Positions 1 through 22,849 of a DNA stretch of 40,316 nt are shown here, piece by piece. The DNA is from Candidatus Saccharimonadota bacterium (GTDB taxonomy: Bacteria; Patescibacteriota; Saccharimonadia; Saccharimonadales; Saccharimonadaceae): contig JAFZQB010000005.1 of assembly GCA_017552385.1 (NCBI GenBank), positions 1 through 40,316 on the forward strand, read 5' to 3'. A model generated the notes under the pieces. That model had not been told where the DNA came from. It did no database searches and was given only the letters and a program-made list of their open reading frames with translations. The position numbers were made by a program, and so were the translations under genes. Position 1 is the first letter of the stretch, and each line of letters begins with the position of its first letter.

Positions 1-3000
1 GGTGACATCCTAGACACTACTACCGAGACCGATCCTCAAACTAACGAATACAATCTTACCTTTGGTGTTAAGACCGACATCGACACTCCTGCTGGTACTT
101 ACAACAAGACCTTTACCCTTACGGCGGTGGCGAATGAGGCTGCCTATAGTGTCGCTTTTGATGCAAATGCTGGAGACGATGAAGTAACAAATATGCCAGA
201 TCCAAACCCGCAGACTACAGGAGTTTCTGGAGTTAACTTGGTCTTATCCAGCGCCATACCCCAACGCTCTGGGTATAATTTCTTAGGTTGGTCAGAAGAC
301 CAGAATGCTACCACGGCAACTTACTACCCAGACGGTAACTATCCGCTTGACGCGACAATATATAACGCAGCCACCCTTTATGCTGTCTGGAAGAATGTCT
401 CAGATGCGCTAACCTATAATATGTATGCTAATGGTGGCACCTATACAAACAATACGCCATTTAACTCTGTCTATTATCAAGCATCCTGTGCGTCTGTAGT
501 TGTTGGCACTTCCCCACAATATTCTCATACCCCAAATCTTCTTGATGATGGTAATAGAAATATGAACTATAGCGAAGGAAATGGTGCCGGTAATTACAAG
601 AACAGCTACGATCAGACTGAAGTTATTACAATTCCGGGAGCTAAAAGCCTTCATATTAGCCTTACGTACGGTGGCGAATCCGCTAGCTTTGACTGGGCTA
701 GCGTCTGGTATGGTGCACACCCTGACTACACTGCATACAACGATTATGATGCTGCTGAAAAGGTTTTTGCTAGTAATAAATTCGGCGGCGGCTCCGCTAC
801 GGTTATTGAGGGAGTAGTATACGGCGTCGATACTATCACCATTGCCTTCCGGTCTGATGGCGGCGGACATGGTAATGGGTATGGATATTATGCGGTGGTC
901 ACCGCCCTAAACGCTGATGGCAACACATTAAGTACCGGCGACAGCTATGAAGAATGCTCCTACCAAATAGCTACCGGCATTTACGAAGAGCCTACAAGAG
1001 ATGGCTATGTCTTCCTCGGTTGGAGCGCTAATCCTAACGCGACAGAACCTAGCTATACTATGGAGAATGAGCTGCTTGACAATCCAACTGGGGCCATTGG
1101 CGAGATTAAAAACTATTACGCTGTTTGGACCAATAGCCACGTTATCACAATTGCTTATGGGTTAGGAGTATCTAGCGTCGTGGTTGACAATAATACCTTA
1201 ACTAATGGCGATACTATTATTCTCGGCGAAGGACAGACTTATCCTATATTCATGAACACTGATGATGGATACACTATAGACAATTGGTCGGCCACGACGG
1301 GCACTATAGCTAGCCAAAAGAGAGCTACTACATACACTGTCGGCCTCGGTAACGCTACTCTCACTGCGACAGCAAAAATAATGCAGGCTTTACAGAGCTG
1401 GAACGACTGCGCCTCGCTCAATGTTGATGACGAGATTGAACTTTACGACATCCGCGATAACCAAGTATACACAGTTACTAAATGGAAAATGATTGCAGAT
1501 GGTTCTCAAACGGCATGCTGGATAAAAGACAACCTCAATCTTGGCGCAGAACCTCTTGTGGTTAATGAGCTTAACGCCGCCAACACCAATATAGTTAAAG
1601 CAAGCGCGGTATCTAAATCCGATTTTGAATCAAATTGGATTAACCATTCCGGTAGCCAAAGTTATATTTATCCGCGGATTCTTTCAATCACTAATGACAA
1701 TTCTCCGAGCGGATCCGATACTGATTCCTACGGAAATAAATATGGCACTCTCTATAATTTCGCCGCCGCCTCTGTGGGAACCGTTGTAGCCGATAGTGGT
1801 GATTTGCCGGACGGCGAGAATTCTGCCGATAGTCTATGCCCATACGGATGGCGTTTGCCAATTACCGACACCTATCCCAACACTCAAGCGGCCTCCCCTA
1901 TTGATTTGCCATCAATTAATGAGTACGAAGCCCTCGTTAACGCCAACTCCATTACTTTTACTACTTTACAATCTGAATTTAACTTTCCCATAAGTGGCTC
2001 TTTCAGCGGCAGTGGGATATATAATTTTAACGAAATGGCGCATTACTGGTCGTCGACCGAGGAGTGCCATAAAGACATGTTCGTCTTAGAAATGCGAATT
2101 TATTATGGCACAGAATACTTATATGCATCAACATATATAGATCGAGCTAGCCCTGGCTCCATCAAATGTGTGTTGGCAGACACCGCTTCAATTACATATG
2201 ATGCCAATGGTGGTTTGGGCGCCCCATTGAGTCAATCGGGTACGGTTGACCCTCATGAAGGTTTCACGCTCAGCGCTACTGAACCAACTAAAGACAACTA
2301 TGTCTTTGCGGGTTGGTCAGAAGATCAAAACGCTACTACTGCAGACTACTTAGCTGGTGAATCTTATCTTGGCTTATCCGGTGATGTTGTGCTCTATGCC
2401 GTATGGGTCCCAGCCCGCACTATTACAGTTTCATATAGCACTGGTATTTCTAGTATTATGCTAGACGGCAGCACTCTAGCAAATAATGACACCATTGTTC
2501 TTGGCGAGGGGATAACGTATAGGATTATCATGAACGTAGAGGCGGGCTATGGGATTGACAATTGGTCTACCACATCTGGCTCTATCGAGGAACAGAAACG
2601 AACAACTTACTATGAAGTGGGACCTAATGACGGCACCATTGCTGCTGCGGCCAAAGTCATTCCGGCCATGCAAGGGTGGAACGGCTGTTCTTCACTAAAC
2701 ATTAATGATGAGCTAGAATTATATGACATTCGTGATGGCACGGCATATACTATCGCTAAGCTTGGCGATGGTAAATGCTGGATGACCCAAAACCTTCGCC
2801 TGGATTTGTCCCTCTATGGTGACCAAATAAATACCAGCAATACGAATAACCCAACAAGCATCTTCTTAGCATCGGCCAACCAAAACCCAGCCGCATCAGC
2901 TAACTTTAAAGGGGAAGGATATGATGCCGACCGTTATGATGTTGTGAAATTTAACACTATGAATATCGGCGATTATTCTCTTGACCATTCCGGTCACACT

Positions 3001-6000
3001 TACGATGAAGGCGGCATTTATTATACCTGGTATACTGCAACGGCTGGCAACGGTGTATATAATTCGAATGATGCTACCGCCGACGGCGATCTTTGCCCGT
3101 CTGGTTGGTCACTCCCTACGGGCGGCGAGACTGGTGATTTCTTCATGCTGAATACGGCCATAAATTCCGGCGCTACCGATACTGCCGCCGGGCTACTCGA
3201 TCCCCCAGCTAACTTTATGCACTCTAGATACTTTAGTGAATATTATGCCAGAATAAATTATCACGACAATGTCGATAGCCATTACTGGAGCAGCACGCGT
3301 CAAAGCAACAGTTATGCCTATACGCTCCATATCAACGCTTATTACGACACAGCTTACTCTTATATCGGCCCGGGCACAGCCACTATCGGGACGGGTTCTG
3401 GTGCTACCGTCCGCTGCCTTGTTGGTAATAACTATCGCATACATTTCGACCCTAACACTGAAGATCAAGTGTTCGGAGCAATGGTTGACCAATACGTCAG
3501 GACTGGCGCCACGACACAGCTAAATGCGAACAGATTTTATCGTCAGCTGGGCGCGGGCTCTGGCTATAGATTCATAGCCTGGAATACAGAACCGGACGGT
3601 TCAGGAATATCTTACGGCGACGGCGCTTTCGTGTCTGACCTTGTCACGGCTGACTCTGCTATCACCCTTTATGCCCAGTGGGACTTAGTAAGCCCGCTTA
3701 TGGCCATAGAAATGAAAGGGAATGGGTTGAGTTTTGACAATAATTCGAACTCAAATACACTTTATTACTATAATGATTGCCGCAACGATTATGCGCCTAT
3801 AGAAAGGTATTCCCACACCTCGAATATTAATGACTCTGGCGTAAACGATGGAAATTATGATAGCGATCTTGCCACTAAAGACGTTATCACTATTCCGGGA
3901 GCTTCCAAATTGCGCGCAACAATTACCTACAGTACAGAAGATGGCTGGGATATGCTCTATGTTTTTGAAGGAGAATACACGGGCAACGTCACTCATGATA
4001 TGTCTGCTGGCCAACTACAAACATATCATGGTAGCTATAGCGCCATGACTACGGTCGTGCTAGATATCCCAGGCGACACCGCTACATTTGCTTTTTATTC
4101 TGACGGCGGGGTAGAATATTATGGCTATTATGCCGTCATTAATGCTCTAGACGGTGACGATAATATTATGCAAACCGCAGAAGCAATACAGACATGCAGC
4201 CGTTCTCTTGTTGCAGGCGAGTATCAAGTCCCATCAATACCTAGTAATCACAAGTTCCTAGGTTGGTCAGAAGATCAAAATGCTACTACCGCCGACTATA
4301 CGAAGGTAGCCGATCTTCTAAACATAGCCGGTGAGAACGGAGAGACTAAGACTCTTTACGCTATTTGGCATTATGTCTACATCATCCACTTTGACGGTAA
4401 CGGTGCAACGTCTGGTACAATGACCGACCAAATTATAACAAGTGGCGCGACGGAAAGCCTTAACTATAACTCCTTCTATCGCGAAGGGTACAGATTCATC
4501 GGTTGGAGCGAGGACCCAAACGCGGCGACATTTACTTATCGGGGCTGGGATAGTTACACCGCCCCAGATAACGGTGGAGAGATTACGCTTTATGCCGTTT
4601 GGGGTTTGCCATACTCAATCGTCTACGATGGTAATGGCGCCACGGACGGCGAGGCAACCGAATCACACAATGATATAAACGAGGGATATGTTATCAACCT
4701 CTACGCTTCCAACTACGCTCGCCCAGGCTATGGTTTCGTTGGCTGGTCCACTGACCCCTTAGCACAGCCAAATGATGGTATCTCTACTATTTATGGCCCA
4801 AATGAAACGATCGACGCCCCAGCATATCCAGGTTCAGATGTTCTTACTCTTTACGCTATTTGGATCCCGAAAGATACTGCTTATACCCTCCAGGATTTTG
4901 ACAGCGCCGCTTTTGAATCCGCCAATCCTAGCGTCACTATCACGGCACTAGAAGATACGCGCGACGGTAATGTTTATGCGGTTTCGAAGCTTGCTGACGG
5001 CAAATGGTGGATGATCGAGAATCTTCGTCTTAACCCCGCAGATCCAAACACAACAATCACGAAGAACAATACAAATAACCCAACAGATACATTTATTGAC
5101 GCTGATATAGTCCTTTCAAACATCCAAAATGCTTCCGGCGATAAAGCGTATGTGAATCCCTATTATCGCACTTGCACTGACTCTAGTATTTCTTGCATTG
5201 ACCAAATATCCTTCGGGATCAGTAATCTAAACGGTACTACGGCCAGCCCGTCAAACTACAATCAGGATACTCGTTGGTACTCATACGGAGTTATGTACAA
5301 CTGGTATACCGCTACGGCTGGTAATGGAACCTATAGCGGAGTTTATGAAGATGGGGCGGTGGCGGGTGATATCTGCCCCAGCGGTTGGCGCCTACCATCC
5401 ATAGGAGATTCATCTAGCGACTTTTCTAATCTCGACATAGCTATCGGTGGCAACGGAACGGAAGACACAGATATTGCTATTGACAATCTATGGCATTCTT
5501 ACCCAAATAACTTTCTGATGTCAGGACATTATAGAGGCACAGCTAGGAGATATACTCACTCGTGCACGGTTTATTGGGGGAACGTGCCATATTCTAATGA
5601 CGGAGGAGCCGTCTTTTATACTGACTATAACGATGTAGTTTATGCGAGCGGAGCGGCTAATTATAAATACGACGGCGCGCCTGTTCGCTGCGTTGCGAAA
5701 TCTACTCCTTCTCTCTCCCTCTCTCTCGGTACTGGCGTAGCTAGCGTTACGGTTGATGGCGTAACATATGATGGCGGCACCCCTATCTCTCTCGCAGAAA
5801 ACTCCACCCATACCATCAACATGACTCTTGTTTCCGGCTATGAATTCGACAACTGGTCCATCTCAGGAGCTGGAACCACTCTCGGCTCCACCTCTACCCA
5901 GAGCACTACTATCACGATCGGCACCGTTAACGTTACCCTGATTGCTAACGCCAAACCTATTAACTTTGATAGTGCCTTTGCCTCTGCCGGCAAAACCAAA

Positions 6001-7170
6001 CAGGGCAGTTATTACACTATGCAAGATATGACTGCTAGTATTTGCTCCTCGGTTGGTATCGGACAAACCGGTATACTAATAGACATTCGTGACGGCACAG
6101 AATATACGGTCGCCAAACTTGCTGACGGTAAATGCTGGATGACTCAGAATATGCGTCTAGACTTCTCGTCTTCCGCTATCACTACTCAATCAGTCGCTGA
6201 CCTGGAGAGTGCTACTAATAATCCCGCCTCTGGATTCTGGGCCGCAGCTCAAGGCGCCACTGCTTCAAACTCTGGGTTCGGTTCTAGCAATTACGATATC
6301 GTCAAATATAGCAAAATAAATATTGGTGACAACACCACAGACTCCACCGACCACACCTATGACGAGTATGGCATCTACTACAACTGGTATACCGCTACCG
6401 CTGGCCAAGGTACCAGAAGCAAATCTTCTGGCAATACTGATGGTGATCTTTGCCCGAGTGGTTGGCATCTTCCAACGGGGAATGTTAGTAATACTGATGG
6501 TGACTTTTATGACTTAAACGTTGCCATTAATAGTGGTTCAACCACCGATTACTCTGGGCTTATTGCCTCTCCAGCAAGCTTCCTTTATTCTGGATCCATT
6601 GCTGATTCTAGCTATATGTATCGCGGTACGTCTGGTATTTACTGGAGCAGCACGGCATTTAGCACCAATAGTGACCAAGCTTTCCTTCTCTACTTTGGTA
6701 GCGATCTCGGCGTTGTCTGGCCTGGTATTGGCCTGGTTGATAAAACTATGGGGCAGCCAATTCGTTGTCTTGTTGATGGCAGCACCACTCAACAATCACC
6801 AGACCCAGAGCCAGCAGCCGCTCCGCAACAGAGTAATCAACAAAGTAGTCCCGTTCCTGTTCGGGCCCAATCAGCTGCCGCTCAGCAGACGGCACACAAC
6901 GATTCAATCGGCGCCGAAGATGAGACCAAAGACGAGAGTTCAGAAGAAACAAATGTCCAACCGCTTGGTGTAAATAAAGAACTCGATGAAGCGGTAAGCT
7001 CTGCCGCAAATATTAGCAACTCGGACAACACAACTAGTATTTTTGGTACTATTGCCATAGTTGGAGCCGGTATTGCCACGACTACTGGCCTCTTACTTCT
7101 AGCGAGTAAGAAACGAGAAGAAGATGAATGTGGCTCAGAGATCGACGATGGCTCAAATCGTCAAATATAA
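1..7170 (+). CDS. Giant FISUMP / InlB-repeat surface protein, 5' end outside window
   Basis: The frame is open from base 1, so the gene is cut by the left edge; a GTG at 127 is internal. About 2389 residues are visible. Approximate order: seven InlB B-type (Flg_new) repeats (about 48-130, 310-378, 730-805, 1144-1232, 1396-1458, 1459-1536, 1537-1622), two CUB-like domains (138-305, 1235-1395), three divergent bacterial repeats with a DNWS motif (380-460, 806-888, 1905-1988), and four FISUMP domains (478-728, 900-1143, 1645-1900, 2025-2262) marked by DIRDG, CWMTQN, CPSGW and WSST. A Gln/Pro/Glu-rich linker, one membrane helix (about 2347-2370) and a short charged tail with a KK start end the protein. 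It is probably anchored with its repeats outside the cell, as an adhesin or host-contact protein. The binding partner cannot be told from sequence. The true N-terminus and any signal peptide are not in the window. Confidence 0.9.
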   Translation, partial: GDILDTTTETDPQTNEYNLTFGVKTDIDTPAGTYNKTFTLTAVANEAAYSVAFDANAGDDEVTNMPDPNPQTTGVSGVNLVLSSAIPQRSGYNFLGWSEDQNATTATYYPDGNYPLDATIYNAATLYAVWKNVSDALTYNMYANGGTYTNNTPFNSVYYQASCASVVVGTSPQYSHTPNLLDDGNRNMNYSEGNGAGNYKNSYDQTEVITIPGAKSLHISLTYGGESASFDWASVWYGAHPDYTAYNDYDAAEKVFASNKFGGGSATVIEGVVYGVDTITIAFRSDGGGHGNGYGYYAVVTALNADGNTLSTGDSYEECSYQIATGIYEEPTRDGYVFLGWSANPNATEPSYTMENELLDNPTGAIGEIKNYYAVWTNSHVITIAYGLGVSSVVVDNNTLTNGDTIILGEGQTYPIFMNTDDGYTIDNWSATTGTIASQKRATTYTVGLGNATLTATAKIMQALQSWNDCASLNVDDEIELYDIRDNQVYTVTKWKMIADGSQTACWIKDNLNLGAEPLVVNELNAANTNIVKASAVSKSDFESNWINHSGSQSYIYPRILSITNDNSPSGSDTDSYGNKYGTLYNFAAASVGTVVADSGDLPDGENSADSLCPYGWRLPITDTYPNTQAASPIDLPSINEYEALVNANSITFTTLQSEFNFPISGSFSGSGIYNFNEMAHYWSSTEECHKDMFVLEMRIYYGTEYLYASTYIDRASPGSIKCVLADTASITYDANGGLGAPLSQSGTVDPHEGFTLSATEPTKDNYVFAGWSEDQNATTADYLAGESYLGLSGDVVLYAVWVPARTITVSYSTGISSIMLDGSTLANNDTIVLGEGITYRIIMNVEAGYGIDNWSTTSGSIEEQKRTTYYEVGPNDGTIAAAAKVIPAMQGWNGCSSLNINDELELYDIRDGTAYTIAKLGDGKCWMTQNLRLDLSLYGDQINTSNTNNPTSIFLASANQNPAASANFKGEGYDADRYDVVKFNTMNIGDYSLDHSGHTYDEGGIYYTWYTATAGNGVYNSNDATADGDLCPSGWSLPTGGETGDFFMLNTAINSGATDTAAGLLDPPANFMHSRYFSEYYARINYHDNVDSHYWSSTRQSNSYAYTLHINAYYDTAYSYIGPGTATIGTGSGATVRCLVGNNYRIHFDPNTEDQVFGAMVDQYVRTGATTQLNANRFYRQLGAGSGYRFIAWNTEPDGSGISYGDGAFVSDLVTADSAITLYAQWDLVSPLMAIEMKGNGLSFDNNSNSNTLYYYNDCRNDYAPIERYSHTSNINDSGVNDGNYDSDLATKDVITIPGASKLRATITYSTEDGWDMLYVFEGEYTGNVTHDMSAGQLQTYHGSYSAMTTVVLDIPGDTATFAFYSDGGVEYYGYYAVINALDGDDNIMQTAEAIQTCSRSLVAGEYQVPSIPSNHKFLGWSEDQNATTADYTKVADLLNIAGENGETKTLYAIWHYVYIIHFDGNGATSGTMTDQIITSGATESLNYNSFYREGYRFIGWSEDPNAATFTYRGWDSYTAPDNGGEITLYAVWGLPYSIVYDGNGATDGEATESHNDINEGYVINLYASNYARPGYGFVGWSTDPLAQPNDGISTIYGPNETIDAPAYPGSDVLTLYAIWIPKDTAYTLQDFDSAAFESANPSVTITALEDTRDGNVYAVSKLADGKWWMIENLRLNPADPNTTITKNNTNNPTDTFIDADIVLSNIQNASGDKAYVNPYYRTCTDSSISCIDQISFGISNLNGTTASPSNYNQDTRWYSYGVMYNWYTATAGNGTYSGVYEDGAVAGDICPSGWRLPSIGDSSSDFSNLDIAIGGNGTEDTDIAIDNLWHSYPNNFLMSGHYRGTARRYTHSCTVYWGNVPYSNDGGAVFYTDYNDVVYASGAANYKYDGAPVRCVAKSTPSLSLSLGTGVASVTVDGVTYDGGTPISLAENSTHTINMTLVSGYEFDNWSISGAGTTLGSTSTQSTTITIGTVNVTLIANAKPINFDSAFASAGKTKQGSYYTMQDMTASICSSVGIGQTGILIDIRDGTEYTVAKLADGKCWMTQNMRLDFSSSAITTQSVADLESATNNPASGFWAAAQGATASNSGFGSSNYDIVKYSKINIGDNTTDSTDHTYDEYGIYYNWYTATAGQGTRSKSSGNTDGDLCPSGWHLPTGNVSNTDGDFYDLNVAINSGSTTDYSGLIASPASFLYSGSIADSSYMYRGTSGIYWSSTAFSTNSDQAFLLYFGSDLGVVWPGIGLVDKTMGQPIRCLVDGSTTQQSPDPEPAAAPQQSNQQSSPVPVRAQSAAAQQTAHNDSIGAEDETKDESSEETNVQPLGVNKELDEAVSSAANISNSDNTTSIFGTIAIVGAGIATTTGLLLLASKKREEDECGSEIDDGSNRQI
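287..320 (+). repeat. Coding repeat, copy 1 (GWSEDQNATTA)
   Basis: First of three near-identical DNA copies inside the giant surface gene, each encoding GWSEDQNATTA at the end of an InlB-type repeat. The other copies are at 2311-2344 and 4261-4294. Similarity at DNA level is higher than the rest of the repeats, which suggests recent duplication or conversion. Confidence 0.75.
2311..2344 (+). repeat. Coding repeat, copy 2 (GWSEDQNATTA)
   Basis: Second copy of the repeat described at 287-320. It is closest to copy 3, sharing the run through GATCAAAA. Confidence 0.75.
4261..4294 (+). repeat. Coding repeat, copy 3 (GWSEDQNATTA)
   Basis: Third copy of the repeat described at 287-320; nearly identical to copy 2. 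Confidence 0.75.
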
Positions 7171-16918: not shown

Positions 16919-16927
16919 TGTTAAAAT
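16919..16927 (+). promoter_or_regulatory. Extended -10 promoter of the split phosphoketolase operon
   Basis: TGTTAAAAT ends 6 bases before the ATG at 16934. Predicted leaderless. Confidence 0.65.
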
Positions 16928-16933
16928 ATAAGT

Positions 16934-17905
16934 ATGAATCCAGGAGTGGGCATCTCTTATAATACTTCCGAACATATTCGCCGTCGTGTCCGTGCGGCAG
17001 ATTATTTGACCGTAGCCCAACTCTTCCTTTTGCAAAACTTTTTATTAGATCACCCACTTTCGCCTGATGACATCAAGCCTCGTCTCTTAGGCCACTGGGG
17101 GACATGTCACGGCATTAATGTTGTCTATGCTAATCTCAAGTACTTCTATTCCGCCCGTTCGGAGTTTCAGTTCATTCTGGGGCCTGGCCATGGTTTCCCG
17201 GCACTACAGGCCAATCTATTCTTGGATGGTGATCTAGAAAAAGTTGATCCTAAAGCTTCTCCAACGCTTGCCGGCATCGAATATCTATGTAAAAATTTTT
17301 CTTTTCCTGGTGGCTTTCCTAGCCACTCTTCGCCACTCACTCCCAGTGTTGTTACCGAAGGTGGTGAGTTAGGTTATGCCCTCGGAACTGCATACGGAGT
17401 AGCACTTGGCCATCCAGAGAAGCAGATTGCAGTCCTTATTGGAGACGGTGAATTTGAAACCGGCACTGCTCTAGCTTCGCTCAATCTTAAAAAGCTTATT
17501 TCGGGCGAGACTAACGGCCGAGTCTTACCAATTCTAGCGCTTAATGGCTATAAAATTTCCGGACCTACAATTTTTGCACGTAAGTCCGAAAGGGAACAAC
17601 TTGAAACTATCCGCGGTTTCGGCTTCACTCCTATTGTCGTCGATGGCAACGATCCAGAAAAGTTTCAACTTGCCCTCAATATGGCAGAGTCCTCTAAATC
17701 TCCCTTCATTTTATTCAAGACCGAAAAAGGCGAGACCGGCCCCGAAGAAGTGTCGGGTCAGAAAGTAGCTGGCAATTATTTGGCACACCAAATCCCTCTT
17801 CCGCTTGCTAAGACCGAGCCTGATCAGCTCGATATGCTCGAAGAATGGCTCAGGGGCTATCACTTCGAAGAATTATTTACGGAAGGGAAAGGTTTCAGCA
17901 TATGA
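16934..17905 (+). CDS. xfp: Phosphoketolase, N-terminal (thiamine-diphosphate PP-domain) subunit
   Basis: This 323-residue protein matches the N-terminal domain of xylulose-5-P/fructose-6-P phosphoketolase, which cleaves the sugar phosphate to acetyl-phosphate. Family motifs are intact: LGHWGT (His54), GPGHG (His86), FPGGFPSH, EGGELGYAL, the diphosphate-binding GDGEFETG, NGYKISGPT, and AHQIPLP near the end. It stops with TGA at 17903-17905, at the junction between the PP and Pyr domains of one-chain enzymes (about 800 residues). The next gene starts inside this stop (ATGA) and supplies the rest. The linker of several tens of residues between domains in one-chain enzymes is missing. The two products likely form one active enzyme. 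Confidence 0.9.
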   Translation: MNPGVGISYNTSEHIRRRVRAADYLTVAQLFLLQNFLLDHPLSPDDIKPRLLGHWGTCHGINVVYANLKYFYSARSEFQFILGPGHGFPALQANLFLDGDLEKVDPKASPTLAGIEYLCKNFSFPGGFPSHSSPLTPSVVTEGGELGYALGTAYGVALGHPEKQIAVLIGDGEFETGTALASLNLKKLISGETNGRVLPILALNGYKISGPTIFARKSEREQLETIRGFGFTPIVVDGNDPEKFQLALNMAESSKSPFILFKTEKGETGPEEVSGQKVAGNYLAHQIPLPLAKTEPDQLDMLEEWLRGYHFEELFTEGKGFSI

Positions 17906-19077
17906 TTGAACGTGTAGAACACCCTGGTACAGAGAAAATAAACTTAGCCAAGACCTTTGGTCGTTTACTAAGAGAGCGTTTCGAGAAAGATCCGCGTTTC
18001 TATCTTTTCTCTCCAGACGAGACTACCTCTAATCGTCTCACGGAAGTATACGATATTGAAAAACGTGCCTGGGCTCTGCCCGCAGAAGACTTTGACCTTC
18101 CAGAGTCTGAGCAAGGACGCATCGTTGAACTTCTTTCCGAAAACGCACTCTTTGCTTGTCTTATTGGACACCTATCCAATGGTGAACAAGCTATGATGAC
18201 TAGTTATGAAGCGTTTTTCTCAATTATCCTCCCACAAATCTTCCAACAAATTAAGTTTTACAAGCAGATGGATAACGTTGCCTGGCGTAAAGCTTGGCCT
18301 GCAGTGAATTTATTATCCACTTCAATGTGCTGGCGCCAAGACCACAATGGCTTTTCTCATCAATCGCCAGCCGCTATCTCAGCTCTTCTAGATATCCCTA
18401 GTGGACGCGTTAACTGCCTGTTCCCAGTTGATGACTCTGCTGCAGAGGCTACTTTTGACTTTATGCTTACCAGTGAAAACGTTGTAAATATTACAACGTT
18501 TGATAAAAATGAAACCCCCCGCTGGATTGATTCATACCATGCGAAATTTCTCTTTGATAACGGCGGAGCAAGCATTTATCAATTCGCTTCAGACCCAAAT
18601 CCAGGCATCATTCTGGCTGCCGCTGGCGATATCGCTACCCGCGAAATGCTTCGAGCGAAAGAAATAATTAAGAACGACATTCCCGAGGTGAAACTGCGTT
18701 TTGTAGGAGTCAACTCACTCACGTACGGCCATATAGGTACAACCAAGAATCATCTTTCACAAGAATGCTTTGATGATTATTTTGGTTTTGATCAGCCAAT
18801 CATTGCTAGCTTTCATGGCTATAGAGACACCATGAAAAACATTCTTGCCAACTACACTAATCGTGATCGCCTGGAAGTGCATGGCTTTGAGGAAGAAGGA
18901 TCCACCACTACGCCGCTTGAAATGCTGAGGTTAAATCACAATTCTCGCTACGATTTGGCTGCTGGAATCGCTGTTAAATTAGGCCGCACTGATCTCGCAG
19001 AGAAATACCTCAAAACTCTAGAAGAGAACAAAGAACACGCTCGGCTATATGGCACTGACCAAGTTATCCTAGATTAA
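17902..19077 (+). CDS. xfp: Phosphoketolase, C-terminal (Pyr and C-domain) subunit
   Basis: A 391-residue protein matching the second half of phosphoketolase. SPDETTSN carries the catalytic Glu equivalent (Glu40; E479 in the Bifidobacterium enzyme). WRQDHNGFSHQSP follows in the Pyr domain, then ILAAAGD and EEGSTTTPLEMLRLN in the C-terminal domain. The open frame extends to 17845, but the ATG at 17902 overlaps the upstream TGA as ATGA and has AAAGG 9 bases before it, so translational coupling is likely. No acetate kinase or phosphotransacetylase lies nearby. No clear terminator follows. Confidence 0.9.
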   Translation: MIERVEHPGTEKINLAKTFGRLLRERFEKDPRFYLFSPDETTSNRLTEVYDIEKRAWALPAEDFDLPESEQGRIVELLSENALFACLIGHLSNGEQAMMTSYEAFFSIILPQIFQQIKFYKQMDNVAWRKAWPAVNLLSTSMCWRQDHNGFSHQSPAAISALLDIPSGRVNCLFPVDDSAAEATFDFMLTSENVVNITTFDKNETPRWIDSYHAKFLFDNGGASIYQFASDPNPGIILAAAGDIATREMLRAKEIIKNDIPEVKLRFVGVNSLTYGHIGTTKNHLSQECFDDYFGFDQPIIASFHGYRDTMKNILANYTNRDRLEVHGFEEEGSTTTPLEMLRLNHNSRYDLAAGIAVKLGRTDLAEKYLKTLEENKEHARLYGTDQVILD

Positions 19078-21372: not shown

Positions 21373-21401
21373 TTGACCATTGATACCGTTTGTGGTATAA
21401 T
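21373..21401 (+). promoter_or_regulatory. Promoter of the protease-rimK operon
   Basis: TTGACC (21373-21378), a 17-base spacer ending in TGG, then TATAAT (21396-21401). The ATG at 21408 is 6 bases beyond. One of the clearest leaderless arrangements in the window. Confidence 0.85.
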
Positions 21402-21407
21402 AAAAAC

Positions 21408-21914
21408 ATGGACCAAAACAAATTGGAAATTATCGGTTCTACCGAGTACGTTGAGATTGCGGGCATCAAAAATGTCCCCGCAAAGATTGACACTGGCGCT
21501 GACTCGTCATCTCTTTGGGCATCCCAAATCGACGTAGACAAAGAAGGTACCCTTTCTTTTGTTCTCTTCGACAAGAACTCGCCGTTTTATACTGGCGAAA
21601 CGATCAAGCGTCAAAAAGACGAATACGAGGTTAAAATCGTCCGCAGCGGTCACGGTGACGAACGCATCCGTTATCGTACCGAATTAATGTTGAATGTGAA
21701 TGGGCACACTATCCATACCATGTTTACATTGGCTAACCGCTCGCGCAACAATTTTCCAGTCCTCATTGGTCGTCGCACTCTCAAGAATAAATTTCTTGTT
21801 GACGTCTCAAAGATGGCCATTGTTAAAGAGTCCAACCCTATTACCCCCAAGCTCAATCGCGAACTTGAGAAAGACCCCTATGCATTCCATCAGAAATATG
21901 GTAAAACAATGTAA
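21408..21914 (+). CDS. Retropepsin-like RimK-associated protease (PF05618 type)
   Basis: A 168-residue protein of the family named ATP-dependent zinc protease, in fact an aspartic retropepsin-like fold. KIDTGADSSSLWA (about 24-36) carries the catalytic-type DTGA; VLIGRRTLKNKFLVD is the second family motif. These proteins are commonly encoded beside RimK-type ligases, and here rimK follows 26 bases later, so a role in processing or opposing polyglutamylation is inferred. The open frame reaches 21390, but that start overlaps the -10 box. Confidence 0.88.
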   Translation: MDQNKLEIIGSTEYVEIAGIKNVPAKIDTGADSSSLWASQIDVDKEGTLSFVLFDKNSPFYTGETIKRQKDEYEVKIVRSGHGDERIRYRTELMLNVNGHTIHTMFTLANRSRNNFPVLIGRRTLKNKFLVDVSKMAIVKESNPITPKLNRELEKDPYAFHQKYGKTM

Positions 21915-21940
21915 CAGGGAATAAAGGAGAGAAGTTAATA

Positions 21941-22849
21941 ATGAAACTTGCAATACTTTCAAATGGTGACGCTAACTATTCCACTAAGCGCCTCGTCGAG
22001 GAAGCGAAAAAGCGTGGCCACGAGGTTAAAGTAATTAAATACAAGAACTGTTACCTCGCTCTTGACGATAAGCATCCAGAAGTTTTCTATAAAGGCGAAA
22101 GACTCTCTGGTTTTGATGCTATCTTGCCACGCATCTCTAATAATATGACTCGTTACGGCTGTGCTGTTGTACGTCAATTCGAGATGCAGGGCGTTTGGAC
22201 CTCTGCTACCTCTGTTGCCATTACCCGCGCACGCGATAAACTTCGTGCTGCCCAGATTCTAGCCAAATTCGACGTTGACACACCAAAAACTCTCGTTTCT
22301 CGTAACACTTCCGATATTGACGATCTTCTTGAGCAGATTGGCCTCCCAGTCATTATCAAGCTGGCTACTGGCACTCATGGCAATGGCGTCATTCTTGCCG
22401 ACACCAAGAAAGCTGCCAAATCCGCGCTCCAAGCGTTCTATCTCTATAATGAAGACGGCACCAATATTCTCCTCCAAGAGTTTATTAAAGAATCCGCCGG
22501 CACCGACATCCGCGCCTTCGTCGTTGGTAGTCGCGTTGTTGCATCTATGCAACGCGCCTCGCTCGACGACGATTTCCGCTCTAACCTTCATCAAGGTGGC
22601 GCCGGTACTCCAATTAAACTAACTGACGAAGAAAAGAAAATCGCCCTCAAGGCCGCTAAGGCTATGGGCCTCCACATCTGCGGGGTTGATCTCATGCGCT
22701 CTAGCAGAGGACCACTTGTCCTTGAAGTTAACGCTTCTCCGGGATTTGGTATCGAAAAAGTTACCGGCCGTGACGTTGCTTCTAAGATTATCGAATATAT
22801 TGAACACAACGCTCCACGCAAGAATGGCAAAGATCGCGTCGGCGCCTAA
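21941..22849 (+). CDS. rimK: RimK-family alpha-L-glutamate ligase (ATP-grasp)
   Basis: A 302-residue ATP-grasp enzyme. RimK of Escherichia coli adds glutamate to the C-terminus of ribosomal protein S6; the substrate here is inferred only. The N-terminal domain begins MKLAILSNGDANYST; ATP-binding segments include VIIKLATGTHGNGV and ILLQEFIKES; the metal site is in GVDLMRSSRGPLVLEVNASPG. AAAGGAGA at 21923-21930 is a strong ribosome site, as expected for a second gene in an operon. A hairpin follows at 22867. Confidence 0.92.
   Translation: MKLAILSNGDANYSTKRLVEEAKKRGHEVKVIKYKNCYLALDDKHPEVFYKGERLSGFDAILPRISNNMTRYGCAVVRQFEMQGVWTSATSVAITRARDKLRAAQILAKFDVDTPKTLVSRNTSDIDDLLEQIGLPVIIKLATGTHGNGVILADTKKAAKSALQAFYLYNEDGTNILLQEFIKESAGTDIRAFVVGSRVVASMQRASLDDDFRSNLHQGGAGTPIKLTDEEKKIALKAAKAMGLHICGVDLMRSSRGPLVLEVNASPGFGIEKVTGRDVASKIIEYIEHNAPRKNGKDRVGA

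Follow-up and report, generated by a model that had tools for sequence, protein, structure and literature searches.

The window analyzed here, i.e., the whole stretch of 40,316 nucleotides, belongs to a Saccharibacteria genome of 766 kb that is assembled into 13 contigs and is 97% complete; its named relatives are Candidatus Saccharibacteria, for most of which the gut of sheep, goat or roe deer is the source. Two genes with intact open reading frames adjoin each other on the forward strand of this window. Gene 1 (16934..17905, +) encodes a chain of 323 amino acids and gene 2 (17902..19077, +) a chain of 391 amino acids, and both overlap in the four nucleotides ATGA (17902..17905, +), which form the start of gene 2 and the stop of gene 1. 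The list of open reading frames lets the second frame start at an earlier ATG at position 17845 (410 amino acids); due to the conservation across relatives position 17902 is the true start. Profile searches with Pfam assign XFP_N to gene 1 (E-value 9e-89) and XFP and XFP_C to gene 2 (3e-45 and 7e-39), so that the domain order of phosphoketolases is kept over two adjoining genes with all three matches above the Pfam cut-offs. The best solved match for both halves is 9cd3, a phosphoketolase from a Candidatus Saccharibacterium that consists of a single chain of 799 amino acids; its residues 11-350 align with gene 1 and its residues 397-750 with gene 2. This places the break at the PP/Pyr junction, as was claimed in the initial annotation together with the assignment of the overlapping genes to the N- and C-terminal halves of a phosphoketolase. 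Gene 1 is thus assigned as the PP subunit, based on the Pfam match, the alignment to 9cd3, invariant residues and the predicted fold, and gene 2 as the subunit carrying the Pyr and the C-terminal domain, based on the first three of these lines of evidence. The adjoining genes encode a TRAM-domain protein, a protein without Pfam match and TyrS and give no indication of a pathway operon. Elsewhere in the window (21390-22849) a putative ATP-grasp-associated zinc protease (PF05618) and a RimK-like ATP-grasp ligase are encoded in this order, one directly after the other, and a very large open reading frame with a GTG start encodes 2347 amino acids (127-7170) in this reduced genome.

All best matches of both halves are phosphoketolases, and among the family features tested the single-chain architecture is the only one that the gene pair lacks. 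Curated full-length models describe one polypeptide of approximately 790 amino acids, a criterion that is architectural rather than chemical, and here chains of 323 and 391 amino acids are found instead. The best NCBIfam full-length model yields 327 and 285 bits for the two halves compared to a cut-off of 962 bits, i.e., about a third of the score needed. As these models reject each half, a split phosphoketolase may have stayed hidden.

The residues of the active site are divided between both chains. Using the numbering of the Bifidobacterium breve enzyme, which was obtained by counting, the chain encoded by gene 1 holds the equivalents of H64, H97, H142, K300 and H320 (H54, H86, H131, K265 and H285) as well as the GDG...N motif, and the chain encoded by gene 2 holds those of E479, Y501, Q546, N549, H553 and K605 (E80, Y102, Q146, N149, H153 and K202). 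In an alignment of 94 split and 33 fused sequences all these residues and the GDG...N motif are invariant, which agrees with the earlier statement that the catalytic and cofactor motifs are intact in both parts. Therefore, neither chain carries a full active site. H64, H142, H320 and H553 are residues that were mutated according to the titles of PDB entries. For the residues beyond these and four described for the cyanobacterial enzyme, we take the catalytic roles to be those known for the family. The four cyanobacterial residues, i.e., Y492, N540, K593 and D538, are conserved catalytic residues of that phosphoketolase (PMC10365998). The predicted structure of the PP subunit is of moderate quality (pLDDT 71) and resembles phosphoketolase PP domains with a TM score of 0.82; the model obtained for the Pyr and C-terminal subunit (pLDDT 49.5) is too poor to be used. 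Moreover, purifying selection on both halves is strong, with dN/dS values of approximately 0.005-0.05 for pairs with usable dS, and the divergence of one half is correlated with that of the other (Mantel r 0.86 overall and 0.81 within the genus, with none of 999 permutations reaching such a value).

A search of related genomes revealed that the split recurs. Within the genus, the PP half was found in 112 of 118 genomes, and in 111 of these 112 it is encoded in its own short frame, with G278 being the one genome with a fused frame, of 725 amino acids. Altogether 130 distinct loci were fetched from genome samples of the home phylum. Of these, 35 have a single frame, two of which are short of the N-terminal part; the other 95 are split and come from a single family, within which they represent five genera. 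The split was observed in 75 of 76 loci of the home genus, 16/16 of genus g11, 2/2 of g12, 1/1 of g59 and 1/4 of g9. When 380 genomes sampled across the phylum were searched, 45 gave a match, and all those outside of the split genera have a single frame of approximately 760-850 amino acids. Orphan halves were not seen among the fetched loci, as both loci without one half (L059 and L116) are located at a contig edge. A different situation is found in L114 (G013:C2, minus strand, below 502647), where a phosphoketolase of another clade lacks approximately its first 262 residues and is left with a frame of 512 amino acids; it sits inside a long contig and represents a truncated gene, unlike the conserved split. 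The single chain is the rule elsewhere in the phylum, and a sequencing or assembly indel, or a recent frameshift or pseudogenization of an ordinary single-chain gene, might be suspected on this ground. However, the same split is present in more than 100 separately assembled genomes, the linker block is missing and not frameshifted, and the dN/dS values of both halves are very low, leaving this explanation with a practically negligible probability. In particular, an indel of one assembly does not account for a split that recurs in independent genomes, i.e., in 111 of 112 genomes of the genus, in all loci of g11 and in three further genera, and a frameshift or assembly error is ruled out by this recurrence. 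Most close relatives are split; an unbroken gene for about 780 residues in all of them would have spoken against the initial annotation. Its preference for a real two-subunit enzyme over a frameshift is supported by the recurrence, the strong purifying selection, the divided active site and the Shine-Dalgarno motif of gene 2.

This motif, a Shine-Dalgarno-like sequence AAGGGAAAGG (AAGGG/AAAGG; 17883..17892, +), is located inside the end of gene 1 and was identified from the sequence. A ribosome site of its own, as had been postulated for the second gene, is borne out, and a Shine-Dalgarno motif is present there in 90 of 94 split loci, compared to approximately 10% of random coding windows and 19% of fused genes at the same place. 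Gene 1 is preceded by an extended -10 promoter element TGTTAAAAT (16919..16927, +), which ends 6 nucleotides before its ATG. A promoter and terminator scan over the gene pair found promoter sites no more often than in shuffled sequences and did not list this element; it was revealed by the sequence and by comparison across loci. An extended -10 element (TGnTAnn[AC]T) ends 6-9 nucleotides before the start of gene 1 in 78 of 91 split loci and never occurs in this position before gene 2, and a Shine-Dalgarno motif before gene 1 was found in 1 of 90 split loci. These signals are most simply read as a bicistronic mRNA whose first cistron is leaderless and whose second cistron is led by a Shine-Dalgarno motif and coupled via ATGA. 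Many genes of this genome have a -10-like element approximately 6-9 nucleotides before the start codon without a Shine-Dalgarno motif, as one expects for leaderless mRNAs, and operon-internal genes do have a Shine-Dalgarno motif. In the window, -10-like elements are located upstream of 9512, 13342, 16934 and 19141 on the forward strand and of 16876, 26108 and 40068 on the reverse strand.

Short overlaps are common and natural in-frame fusions are known, namely L066 and those of genus g9, and a working enzyme of one fused chain might accordingly be made by programmed frameshifting at the overlap or by slippage between stop and start. We regard this as very improbable, since the frame relation varies by lineage: 58 of the 75 split loci in the genus have a start-stop offset of -1 and some others one of -5 or -8, the loci of g11 have overlaps of 11-23 nucleotides in the other frame, and a few loci have short gaps. 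A shared frameshifting signal is not possible with frame relations that differ between lineages, and a conserved signal of this kind is ruled out by the variation in overlap and frame. Furthermore, gene 2 has its Shine-Dalgarno motif and start codon, and the product of such slippage would be without the usual linker.

The loss of the long linker, also part of the initial annotation, was borne out by comparison with single-chain relatives. The distance between the N Tyr309 position and the FSPDET motif has a median of approximately 50 residues in the split pairs of the genus compared to approximately 88 residues in single-chain relatives. A linker block around (R)MGxN/S/T, which was read off aligned segments as the strict pattern misses some variants, is present in 29 of 29 aligned outgroup single-chain enzymes and in no split pair. 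Phylogenetic trees were calculated from 127 rows and, more carefully, from 34 rows without the linker columns. All split genes fall into one clade (bootstrap 100, SH-aLRT 100), which includes four fused genes, i.e., the one of G278 (L066) and three of genus g9. These four genes are devoid of the linker block as well, and their linkers are unrelated. A single clade of split genes without reversals was rejected (AU test, p 0.0002), and a placement of g9 outside of the split clade was disfavored (p 0.017). L066 (G278:C4, about 44421-46556) is a natural fused phosphoketolase of 722 amino acids nested among split relatives; its linker, SCRFCRPPRRQVSAGVPLQNRHPSEIVDEDDN, is unlike that of any single-chain enzyme, suggesting that L066 is probably a re-fusion. 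Of the four loci of genus g9 (L100, L101, L109 and L105), three carry a fused and one a split gene, and the linkers of the three fused genes differ in length and are unrelated in sequence. To judge from these genes, the same enzyme is repeatedly fused or split in this genus. The best reading of the data is one ancient split accompanied by the loss of the linker, followed by re-fusion in L066 and at least once in g9, where one member would be still split or split again. With a single origin, the split appears to be stable, functional and reversible, as it would have been kept in more than 100 species and re-fused at least twice. It is not obligatory, as the fused genes in one genome of the genus and in three members of g9 reveal.

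Regarding the metabolic context, no match to Transketolase_N (PF00456) was found in this genome including this locus or in 60 genomes of the genus, and no phosphofructokinase (PFK) was found in this genome. Acetate kinase and ribulose-phosphate epimerase are encoded on other contigs of the genome. In another Saccharibacterium, a single-chain phosphoketolase encoded beside acetate kinase has been suggested to provide an energy route (PMC6031116). The enzyme described here likely converts pentose phosphates, and perhaps fructose-6-phosphate, for the formation of acetyl-phosphate and ATP. Alternatively, a two-chain ThDP enzyme might have altered its chemistry, with the loss of the linker enabling a transketolase-like or broader ketol transfer that covers the missing transketolase. 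The acceptance of bulkier substrates was tied to the loss of the linker in a split transketolase (PMC7661550), and the genus encodes no transketolase that could cover this step. All phosphoketolase residues tested are invariant, including the equivalents of H64, H142, H320 and H553, the genome encodes an acetate kinase for the use of acetyl-phosphate, and every best match is a phosphoketolase, making an altered chemistry unlikely.

The gene pair thus very probably encodes a two-gene, two-subunit phosphoketolase. The direct results, i.e., the genes, their conservation, selection and residues, the Shine-Dalgarno motif, the phylogeny, the loss of the linker and the presence or absence of pathway genes, can be combined in the following mechanism. 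One transcript would start probably at or beside the ATG of gene 1 and would be leaderless. Gene 2 would be translated from its own Shine-Dalgarno motif and coupled to gene 1 via the ATGA overlap; this coupling would hold both chains near a 1:1 ratio. The PP and the Pyr and C-terminal subunits probably assemble into an α2β2 core as in the split-gene transketolase, in which ThDP-Mg would be held between one PP and one Pyr domain. In the presence of phosphate this complex would convert xylulose-5-phosphate and/or fructose-6-phosphate to acetyl-phosphate and an aldose phosphate, and acetate kinase would use acetyl-phosphate for the formation of ATP. Taken as a whole, the data make it likely that this is an undescribed heteromeric phosphoketolase, which originated a single time, when an ancestor common to at least five genera of Saccharibacteria lost the linker block, was kept in more than 100 species, was re-fused at least twice with unrelated linkers and acts as the sole phosphoketolase/transketolase-type enzyme of these cells.

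If true, phosphoketolase is a further ThDP enzyme whose PP and Pyr domains function on separate chains, and this would bear on a step that is central to the energy metabolism of reduced episymbionts without transketolase. No description of a split or heteromeric phosphoketolase was found in the open-access literature as judged by title and abstract. Moreover, one bacterial family offers natural controls, as split, re-fused and always-fused relatives coexist in it, making the function of the linker and the change from a homodimer to a heterotetramer testable. The single-chain phosphoketolases (XPK/XFPK, EC 4.1.2.9/4.1.2.22; 9cd3) share the three domains, their order and the catalytic residues with the gene pair, whereas here two genes are present, the (R)MGxN/S/T linker block is lost and the total length is approximately 704-714 amino acids compared to approximately 786. 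The break between PP and Pyr at the gene level and the missing linker, which define a two-chain ThDP architecture, are both found at this locus. The similarity to split transketolases and two-chain E1 enzymes pointed out initially holds, as the same division into a PP chain and a Pyr and C-terminal chain is found there (PMC7661550). In the heterotetrameric E1 components the α-chain carries the PP domain and the β-chain the Pyr and C-terminal domains (PMC7661550). This division is alike in the E1 components of the pyruvate and the branched-chain 2-oxoacid dehydrogenases; however, chemistry and family differ, and E1_dh (PF00676) matches gene 1 with an E-value of 4e-4, below the Pfam cut-off. The split-gene transketolase of Carboxydothermus hydrogenoformans (PDB 6yak) has the PP domain on one chain and the Pyr and C-terminal domains on the other, with the gene break between PP and Pyr and the linker absent, and it is active only as α2β2 heterotetramer, as the chains alone are inactive (PMC7661550). 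Break, missing linker and chain division are alike in this enzyme, and also in archaeal two-gene transketolases, and in the gene pair described here; the family is a different one, as the pair has no Transketolase_N match and the PP chain of 6yak is only a weak match in sequence (3e-7) and in fold. The split-gene transketolase of Carboxydothermus is the closest precedent for the two-gene phosphoketolase of the Saccharibacteria.
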